From a virus, in the IMG/VR virus record IMGVR_UViG_3300042549_006752, positions 1 to 32,078 of that record: a stretch of 32,078 bases of DNA, one strand, 5' to 3'. The position numbers were made by a program, and so were the translations under genes. Positions 2,660 to 9,731 of this stretch are shown here, piece after piece (within the stretch, counting starts at the first letter, position 1; each line of letters opens with the position of its first letter). A model generated the notes under the pieces. It was not told the origin of the DNA, did not search any database, and saw nothing but the letters and a program-made list of their open reading frames with translations.

Positions 2660-3453
2660 GCCTCGAAGATTTCCTCCAGTTCACCCGGCGCGCATGGCGG
2701 GCGGTTTGCTTCCTCCAGCATCCGGTGCAATTCCTCGGCCTGTTCCCGTGCGGCTTTGTCGCACGCTGCCTTGCGCCGCTCCTGTTCGGCGTGGTCGTCT
2801 GCCGTCATTTGGCGTGCCGGGGCGGATGCGGTTGAAATCGTCCGCGTGTCCGAAGATGCCCGGTTGAGCCAGTTCGTGAAAAAGCGGCGAGTGCATTGCC
2901 GTGAATTTGTTTTGCACCACACTTCCGCTTTTGACAGTTCTCGCTTCACGTCCAGATGCCGATACGCCTCTGCCGTTTGAAGCTGTTCCATCCATTCCGA
3001 ATCACTTGCTGACGGCCTCGGTTTCGAGGCTTTCCCTGTTCCCTGTTCCCTGTTCCCTGTTCCCTGTTCCAGCGGGGATGAGTCGGGGATAGGCAGGGGA
3101 ACGGTCGGGGATGAGTCGGGGAACGTAGCTAACTCCTTGAGTTTGCTAGTCTTAAACTTGTCTCCCTTTTGATGTTTCGAGAAATTCACCACATGCCCAA
3201 CTTCCCTCCCTTCTTGGTCAATTCCGATCCTGATATACCCTATACCGGACAGCTCCCCGACCGCTCCCCGAATCGTCCCCGAGTCGTCCACGAATGGAAA
3301 AAGCGCGGCGCGAATTAGGATCGGGTTGGCGTAGAAATACCCCTCGTCGTCCGCAAGATTCAGCAATCCGATTGCCATCAATCGCGTAAAATGTGGCAGT
3401 CGAGACAGCGTTTCGTGCGCCCAAAATTCCGGCTTCAATGTGCGGATTCTCAT
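2656..3453 (-). CDS. Replication initiation protein (winged-helix, phage O-like)
   Basis: The start is ATG 3453 (MRIRTLKPEFWAHETLSRLP), fixed by ATGA overlap with the HNH gene; the frame is open 12 codons further upstream. Residues 1-95 look like the winged helix of phage replication initiators (LPHFTRLMAIGLLNLADDEGYF). A Pro/Ser/Gly-rich linker follows. The C-terminal part has TAEAYRHLDVKRELSKAEVW and FFTNWLNRA, a pattern common in phage initiators that recruit the helicase. Position directly before the primase-helicase supports this. The linker is encoded by tandem heptanucleotide repeats (3032-3070) and a second imperfect repeat, so changes in copy number would alter the frame. Confidence 0.8.
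   Translation of the reverse strand: MRIRTLKPEFWAHETLSRLPHFTRLMAIGLLNLADDEGYFYANPILIRAALFPFVDDSGTIRGAVGELSGIGYIRIGIDQEGREVGHVVNFSKHQKGDKFKTSKLKELATFPDSSPTVPLPIPDSSPLEQGTGNREQGTGKASKPRPSASDSEWMEQLQTAEAYRHLDVKRELSKAEVWCKTNSRQCTRRFFTNWLNRASSDTRTISTASAPARQMTADDHAEQERRKAACDKAAREQAEELHRMLEEANRPPCAPGELEEIFEA
3032..3070. repeat. Heptanucleotide tandem repeat inside the initiator gene
   Basis: Five perfect copies of TTCCCTG followed by TTCC occupy 3032-3070. On the coding strand they give the linker pattern EQGTGNREQGTGK. Seven is not a multiple of three, so only steps of three units keep the frame. Just beyond, GGGGATGAGTCGGGGA occurs twice (about 3074-3089 and 3108-3123). Confidence 0.95.
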
Positions 3454-8779: not shown

Positions 8780-9073
8780 ATGGACACCACCACCGAAAAG
8801 CTAAACGCCGTCGCAGCAAAGCGCCGCGCAAACGCGCTCGCGGAGACACGCACGCCACGCACCGACGCACTGCGCGCGAAGCTGGCACCGCTCGCGGCTA
8901 CGCTGTCCGAGGACAACTTCGGTGAGATAGCTGTGCAGTGCATCACGGAAAGCCTTGCTCAAGTCCGCGCATTGGAGCGCGAGCTTGCCCAGGCCCGCGC
9001 CGTGATTGCGGACATCGTCGACAAGGCTGTGCCTGCGAGTGCGGAGAGCGCCAAAGCATTCCTCGCGAAGTGA
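8780..9073 (+). CDS. Coiled-coil hypothetical protein (97 aa)
   Basis: ATG 8780 (MDTTTEKLNAVAAKRRANAL) to TGA 9073, which overlaps the next start as GTGA. Ala, Arg, Glu and Leu dominate. Residues 55-85 (SLAQVRALERELAQARAVIA) form a likely coiled coil. It contains a P-R-T-D-A-L motif near the N-terminus, similar in flavour to the T-P-E-T-D of the 119-aa coiled-coil protein at 522. No family was recognised. Confidence 0.65.
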   Translation: MDTTTEKLNAVAAKRRANALAETRTPRTDALRAKLAPLAATLSEDNFGEIAVQCITESLAQVRALERELAQARAVIADIVDKAVPASAESAKAFLAK

Positions 9074-9489
9074 CCGCCCTGCCCGCTAACGCCCGCCTGT
9101 GCCATCGCTGCGGAGAGCACTACATTGGCAGGACGTGCCCGAAGTGCCCGCCTTCGCACGCCAGCGCCCCGCCAGCGGCTCCAAGCTCTTATGACAATCA
9201 AACTGACCGTGCCGGGGAAGCTGCCAAGCTGGAACGCAATCTTAGGAATGGGCCACTGGCAAAGAGCGAAGCTGAAAAAGGAAATCCAGAGCGCGTTCTT
9301 GTCCGCGTTACGAGCGTGCGGCGGCGACTCATCGACGAGGACAATCTCGCAGAAAAGTATCACGTCGATTGCTGCCGATACGCTGGCCTCATACATGCAG
9401 ACTCGCCTGACCAAACGAAAATTGAAGTCTGCCAGCGCAAGGCGGAAAAAGACGAAGCGGAGCACACGATAATCGAAATCACCACATGA
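9070..9489 (+). CDS. Zinc-ribbon start plus RusA-like catalytic half (139 aa frame)
   Basis: GTG 9070 overlaps the upstream TGA as GTGA. Residues 10-28 form a zinc ribbon (CHRCGEHYIGRTCPKC). A stretch without clear family signal follows, covering 9191-9279. From about residue 71 the frame carries the catalytic part of RusA Holliday-junction resolvases: VRRRLIDEDNLAEKYHVDCC, then RYAGLIHADSP, with the D-x-D-N and later Asp of the family active site. TGA 9489 overlaps the next ATG as ATGA, so termination in this frame is probably real. The N-terminal RusA half is in another frame (9191). The product is either a fusion as written or one outcome of a -1 frameshift. Confidence 0.7.
   Translation: MTALPANARLCHRCGEHYIGRTCPKCPPSHASAPPAAPSSYDNQTDRAGEAAKLERNLRNGPLAKSEAEKGNPERVLVRVTSVRRRLIDEDNLAEKYHVDCCRYAGLIHADSPDQTKIEVCQRKAEKDEAEHTIIEITT
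9191..9472 (+). CDS. RusA-like N-terminal half in a second frame
   Basis: ATG 9191 opens MTIKLTVPGKLPSWNAILGM, then GHWQRAKLKKEIQSAF. The P-x-x-P-S-x-N-x-x-L start and following helix are typical of the RusA N-terminus, but the active-site residues are absent from the rest of this frame, which ends in a Lys/Arg/Thr-rich tail. A -1 shift at the AAA AAG codons (9275-9280) would join it to the catalytic half for a 99-aa protein with all RusA features. Unshifted, it is a 93-aa basic protein. Whether the shift happens is not shown. A sequencing indel is the other explanation, but both frames remain open for over 280 bases. Confidence 0.55.
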   Translation: MTIKLTVPGKLPSWNAILGMGHWQRAKLKKEIQSAFLSALRACGGDSSTRTISQKSITSIAADTLASYMQTRLTKRKLKSASARRKKTKRSTR

Positions 9490-9731
9490 GCGACACAATC
9501 ACCAAACTGGCCCGCCCTCCATTCCAGCATTGGCTGCGATTCCGAGCTTCCGAACGCGCGCACGTCGTGACTGGCACGAGCGGCCCGATGCTCATCACGC
9601 CCTGCGGATACGCAGCCCACGGCGCGACTGGCGTGCCGGACAAGCGGGCGAAGAAGTGCCGCTCCTGCTCGCGCGCTGTGCGTCCTGTGTCGCCGCAGGA
9701 GCGGCGCATGGCAGGCCACGCGCCGGAATAA
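9486..9731 (+). CDS. Hypothetical protein with a CxxC motif (81 aa)
   Basis: ATG 9486 overlaps the RusA-frame stop as ATGA. The protein reads MSDTITKLARPPFQHWLRFR, then HVVTGTSGPMLITPCGY and AKKCRSCSRAVRPVSP. The three cysteines could bind metal. No family was recognised. It ends the coupled rightward operon; an inverted repeat follows at 9823-9873. Confidence 0.6.
   Translation: MSDTITKLARPPFQHWLRFRASERAHVVTGTSGPMLITPCGYAAHGATGVPDKRAKKCRSCSRAVRPVSPQERRMAGHAPE

Follow-up and report, generated by a model that had tools for sequence, protein, structure and literature searches.

Overlapping genes in uncultured phages probably encode the two halves of a RusA enzyme as separate chains

The question raised by this locus is how a RusA-like resolvase can be made when its N-terminal features lie in one reading frame and its active site in the frame one base behind. 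According to a preliminary description, ribosomes may slip by -1 at an AAAAAG sequence and thereby produce a complete RusA of 99 aa. The window, that is, the whole stretch of DNA analysed (32,078 bases, IMG/VR record IMGVR_UViG_3300042549_006752), carries genes of a tailed phage: terminase, portal, major head protein, DNA primase/helicase, Erf-like annealing protein, DNA methyltransferase and endolysin. The features of the locus are as follows.

8780..9073, + strand: upstream gene, 97 aa, without a PHROG match; its stop overlaps the F0 start
9070..9489, + strand: F0 gene, GTG start, 139 aa; zinc ribbon, linker and putative RusA catalytic half (beta2, DxDN, alpha2 and two more strands)
9100..9147, + strand: zinc-ribbon module CHRCGEHYIGRTCPKC of F0, recognised from the sequence; recurs in the related loci L010-L013
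9191..9472, + strand: F1 gene, ATG start, 93 aa, nested in F0 in the +1 frame; putative RusA N-terminal half (beta1-alpha1) and basic helical tail
9197..9313, + strand: F1 codons 2-40 with the beta1 region, PSWN, HWxRxKxK and alpha1, delimited by column entropies, hhalign and the AF2 helix
9275..9280, + strand: AAAAAG, the proposed slip site, preceded by G, within the alpha1 codons of F1
9290..9313, + strand: doubly constrained zone, the same bases encoding alpha1 in F1 (FLSALR) and beta2 in F0 (RVLVRVTS)
9334..9345, + strand: DEDN of F0, counterpart of RusA D70/D72 by conservation in alignment A3 and clade 2
9355..9357, + strand: invariant Lys of F0, counterpart of RusA K76 (invariant in alignment A3; 36/36 in clade 2)
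9383..9397, + strand: F1 tail motif LASYM (LxSYL in clade 1, EYLxMIRP in clade 2)
9400..9402, + strand: invariant Asp of F0, counterpart of RusA D91 (invariant in alignment A3; 36/36 in clade 2)
9486..9731, + strand: downstream gene, 81 aa, without a PHROG match; its start overlaps the F0 stop

The arrangement described earlier was found in the sequence. F1 reads MTIKLTVPGKLPSWNAILGMGHWQRAKLKK... from the ATG at 9191, the longer stretch being VPGKLPSWNAILGMGHWQRAKLKK and onward, and F0, which lies in the -1 frame relative to F1 (one base apart), reads the zinc ribbon from the GTG at 9070 and then RRRLIDEDNLAEKYHVDCC. Both frames are jointly open for more than 280 bases, F1 (9191-9472) lying inside F0, and the GTG 9070 frame does join a zinc ribbon to the catalytic half in 139 aa. 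The F0 start and the stop of the upstream gene share GTGA at 9070-9073, and the F0 stop TGA and the ATG of the downstream gene share ATGA at 9486-9489. Because these overlaps tie F0 to its neighbours, F0 is an ordinary operon gene with F1 nested in it, and the earlier claim that the catalytic frame is translated was upheld. An antisense frame of 179 aa on the minus strand (8959-9498 of the window) is also open over the entire locus; it is probably a by-product of high GC content and double coding.

The preliminary description had proposed comparing homologues both for the same split and for the AAAAAG motif. Searches with either frame yielded loci in IMG/VR and three more in genomes of Verrucomicrobiota, and the profile matches of the two halves were paired over all loci collected. 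Among Verrucomicrobiota strains, Verrucomicrobium sp. BvORR106 carries a homologue (locus L140). In clade 1, the same frame offset and a spacing of 74 nt were found in 137/137 paired loci, which comprise 58 distinct sequences at 97% identity; this agreement is far beyond chance. The distant clade 2, with the catalytic motif RHRLADPDGISAKALIDGL, showed the same split in 36 distinct sequences; these come from the phage record vir555, from one locus in a Verrucomicrobiota genome and from many in IMG/VR. The F1-F0 spacing was constant within each clade. Thus, the split is kept in more than ninety distinct phage sequences (58 + 36), and no locus with the halves as separate, non-overlapping genes was present among the homologues collected. 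In vir555 (L143 1446-1790, BK063671.1), F1 alone is annotated, as a hypothetical protein, and the catalytic F0 was missed. Matches to Bacteriophage sp. MT839294 and to Pseudomonas phage Persinger were followed, and no split gene was reached from either. No prior account of a split RusA was found in the open-access literature.

No RusA match was obtained when the frames of the window themselves were scanned against PHROG and Pfam, and neither the window proteins nor the A1 members matched PF05866 above the cut-off; profiles therefore had to be built. Single-frame RusAs were represented by an alignment of 29 sequences of the Listeria, Lactobacillus and actinobacterial phage types and their relatives. 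Codons 2-41 of the clade-1 F1 profile aligned with RusA columns 12-54 (hhalign, probability 94%, P 1.1e-7) with a score of 39.0, as against at most 15.2 after column permutation (0/60 permutations reached it). The clade-2 F0 profile aligned with RusA columns 63-114 (hhalign, P 5e-13), and the clade-1 F0 alignment matched single-frame RusA with P 1.6e-4. Among F0 homologues, 24/42 segments matched the RusA family phrog_34 at E <= 1 (best 2.2e-8), and the F0 of vir555 matched it at 1.2e-8. As judged from these profile alignments, F1 corresponds to one part of a RusA domain and F0 to the part that follows it. The DNA of about codons 33-40 would therefore finish alpha1 in one frame and begin beta2 in the other.

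Both Asp residues of the F0 DEDN are nearly or fully invariant in alignment A3 and invariant in clade 2, and the counterparts of the active-site residues (D47, D49, K54 and D69 in alignment numbering) are invariant or nearly so. The residues D70, D72, K76 and D91 of E. coli RusA are those that we take to form its active site. The AF2 model of F0 had a pLDDT of 82, and a Foldseek search with it against viral models retrieved a 'Putative RusA superfamily protein' and many other RusA-named models; the best match (BFVD) was a 125-aa F0-like protein that shares 65% identity with the F0 half. In the AF2 model of F1, alpha1 is a continuous helix (residues 22-46) running across the overlap, and beta1 is not formed in this single-chain model. 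Foldseek searches against the PDB did not retrieve RusA with the F0 half alone and gave zero matches with F1 alone; a single-frame relative from a Gordonia phage matched the E. coli RusA structures.

Selection on the two frames was assessed from column entropies and from substitution counts per codon position on a tree of 57 sequences. By entropy, F1 was conserved at codons 2-40 (codon 0 being the ATG at 9191) and F0 from codon 33 onward. Substitutions in F1 codons 4-32 fell at F1 third positions (about 17 per codon versus 6-7 at second positions), and from codon 40 onward F0 third positions had about 12-17 changes per codon versus 1.5-9 at F0 second positions. As read from the wobble position, F0 thus takes over from F1 as the coding frame near codons 33-34. 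At codons 35-39, all three positions were low (2.0/5.2/7.2 changes). The third base of F0 codon 38 was T in 42/42 sequences (z -22.5 against codon usage), and codons 35, 36 and 39 were also locked; the locked F0 third bases coincide with the hydrophobic helix residues F35, L36 and L39 of F1. Constraint was also found in the F1 tail. In clade 1, the third base of F0 codon 66 was A in 26/42 sequences; in clade 2, that of codon 65 was A in 35/36, mostly as the Ile codon ATA; F1 has Tyr at this codon in 35/36, and the I-R-P after it is locked.

Stop codons expected by chance were estimated by redrawing synonymous codons according to the codon usage of the locus concerned. The 58 clade-1 sequences had no F0 stops in the F1-coding zone (64 expected) and no F1 stops in the F0-coding zone (58 expected). 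The 42-sequence set, consisting of clade-1 sequences under 80% identical, gave 0 versus 46.5 for F0 and 0 versus 35.4 for F1, and in its third frame many stops were present. These counts come from related sequences and are not independent trials, a concern limited by the calibrated controls: 203 windows of other genes gave 248 stops versus 260 expected and 313 versus 333. In clade 2, F1 had 0 stops versus 110 expected, and upstream F0 had 9 versus 34, the upstream part of F0 not being open in every locus. By the substitution data and the stop counts together, both F1 and F0 are under selection and at full length.

The starts of the two frames were also compared. In many clade-1 loci, the upstream start of F0 is followed by a zinc ribbon or an FPNASxxFLxxN-type motif, and F1 has an internal start, usually ATG; about eight loci have only GTG or TTG starts near beta1. 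No obvious Shine-Dalgarno sequence precedes the F1 start in the window. In seven clade-2 loci, F0 is blocked by stops inside F1, and in 6/7 of these an ATG or TTG occurs at codon 27-30, just before beta2. Suitably spaced Shine-Dalgarno-like sequences precede this restart in L172 (GGAG-8-ATG), L207 (AGGAGG-7-TTG), L209 (GGGAGAGAAAGAA-ATG, with GGGAGAG) and L212 (AAAGG-7-TTG); in the blocked locus L215, no standard start was found. These restarts suggest that translation of each half is initiated separately.

The F0 N-terminus itself is often a conserved FPNASxxFLxxN (L033, L041, L059, L064, L017, L020 and L142), possibly a docking motif, and in clade 2 is of the LPERYQ or EEQYQxFL type. In L010-L013, around position 3001, the zinc ribbon of the window is joined, in one continuous frame, to another RusA of the single-frame kind, and the module therefore belongs with RusA. 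Comparison of these close relatives suggests that the RusA part was swapped behind a fixed zinc ribbon.

The conservation of the split, the selection on both frames and the RusA homology of both halves were thus shown in the homologues. Because the split is kept in more than ninety distinct sequences, the locus looks like an overlapping-gene split enzyme rather than a slip or an error. A single RusA enzyme is probably made here in two separate chains, each half encoded by one of the overlapping genes F1 and F0. F0 would be translated normally from GTG 9070 to give the zinc ribbon, the linker and the catalytic half from beta2 onward with DxDN/K/D. F1 in this phage would be initiated internally at ATG 9191 in the +1 frame to give beta1-alpha1 and the basic helical tail. 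About eight codons (9290-9313) would do double duty, closing alpha1 in F1 and forming strand beta2 in F0. Non-covalent assembly of the two chains would most likely give one RusA-type nuclease, a protein normally made as a single chain but here of two components, and the assembled chains may cleave Holliday junctions. With slightly less confidence, though still as the favoured view, we regard one globular domain built from two half-chains in overlapping frames, with about eight codons serving as helix end and core strand, as a widespread undescribed form of RusA in uncultured phages.

The alternative that survives best, although we consider it rather unlikely, is that F0 alone is the nuclease and that F1 is a separate overprinted protein, such as a regulator, an inhibitor or a DNA-binding partner, which resembles RusA by descent. 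F0 has its own start and N-terminal module, the best viral structure match is itself F0-like, and the F1 tail has a conserved motif of its own. However, the beta1-alpha1 segment missing from F0 is precisely what F1 carries, and the conservation of F1 is strongest over that segment. The upstream parts of F0, moreover, are variable (a zinc ribbon, the FPNAS motif or none) and therefore unlike a replacement of beta1-alpha1.

Less probable still, and to be counted as improbable, is the proposed frameshift, in which ribosomes start in F1, slip by -1 at the Lys codons and finish in F0 to give the 99-aa RusA, the unshifted F1 product possibly being used too. The switch of the coding frame near codons 33-34 agrees with such a slip, as do the A-rich runs near the switch in L172 and L173, and AAAAAG or AAAAAA occurs in phase at codons 20-33 in 24/58 clade-1 and 14/36 clade-2 sequences. 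However, no in-phase candidate was found there in 34/58 and 22/36 sequences, respectively, and at the proposed codons themselves AAAAAG/AAAAAA is present in 17/58 clade-1 and 0/36 clade-2 sequences. Homologues thus keep the split and not the motif. No unusual pseudoknot-free RNA structure that could act as a stimulator was found near AAAAAG in the window sequence (z 0.19 and 1.50). The slip product would have 18 residues from the conserved Lys to the first active-site Asp versus 33-41 in single-frame RusAs, and would be at least 15 residues short of every single-frame RusA aligned. Both frames are constrained across the site: F0 is open upstream of it in all clade-1 sequences, which a slip does not require, and F1 is constrained beyond it, in alpha1 and in the tail motif. 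Upstream F0 openness, the helix constraint and the F1 tail motif are left unexplained by frameshifting alone; overlapping genes fit better. Of the preliminary description, the division of the RusA features over two frames and the presence of AAAAAG after G at 9275-9280 stand; the -1 slip and the slippery role of this sequence are not supported, and it most likely represents plain Lys-Lys codons of alpha1. In the PRFect paper, RusA/RuvC appears in a list of genes 'known to contain a frameshift' (PMC10885494); the entry was rejected, the matching reference found, no. 40, concerning the ruvC gene product (PMC10885494).

It is very improbable that F0 is the sole functional gene and that the likeness of F1 to RusA is a shadow of codon choice. 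F1 does lie inside F0, the frame coupled to the neighbours; however, codons 4-32 change at F1 rather than F0 third positions, F1 stops are absent against the 35 expected, and the permutation test of the F1 profile rejects this explanation. Finally, one indel could yield such a split from a single decayed or mis-sequenced RusA gene, and an indel, error or decay had been named as what would overturn the preliminary description, but 58 + 36 distinct sequences share the split with both frames selected, and this explanation can therefore be dismissed.

If the two-chain reading is true, a known enzyme fold can work when its halves are translated independently from shared DNA. The enzyme would be a naturally split one whose parts are necessarily inherited together, and the locus a clear case of long dual coding within one protein domain. 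Annotation would also be corrected: the vir555 record has F1 only and the top BFVD match is F0-like only, and records with one frame only therefore miss the other half of the enzyme.

To our knowledge, all RusA members are one chain in one frame. Both halves found here align to RusA (PF05866; phrog_34, phrog_1682; E. coli structures 1Q8R and 2H8C), F0 has the D-x-D-N, K and D positions, and its predicted fold resembles RusA-like viral models. The RusA members aligned are single continuous polypeptides, whereas in the present loci the break in the domain falls between alpha1 and beta2 and, as read from the genes alone, the open frames are split in every locus. In -1 frameshift genes such as dnaX and those of the IS3 type with A AAA AAG sites, the frames are one base apart, as here, and AAAAAG occurs in the window too; unlike in those genes, neither a conserved slip site nor a stimulator was found, and selection acts on F1 and F0 alike before and after the site. 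The nearest parallel in layout is provided by the Rz/Rz1 spanins, for which embedded, overlapped and unimolecular versions exist (PMC6139136). In lambda Rz/Rz1, one gene lies in the +1 frame of the other and the products are interacting subunits of one phage complex (PMC6139136); the layout of F1/F0 is comparable, and their products would likewise interact. However, the spanin subunits are separate membrane proteins, whereas F1 and F0 would be the halves of one globular enzyme domain, with the same bases coding for a helix in one and a strand in the other.
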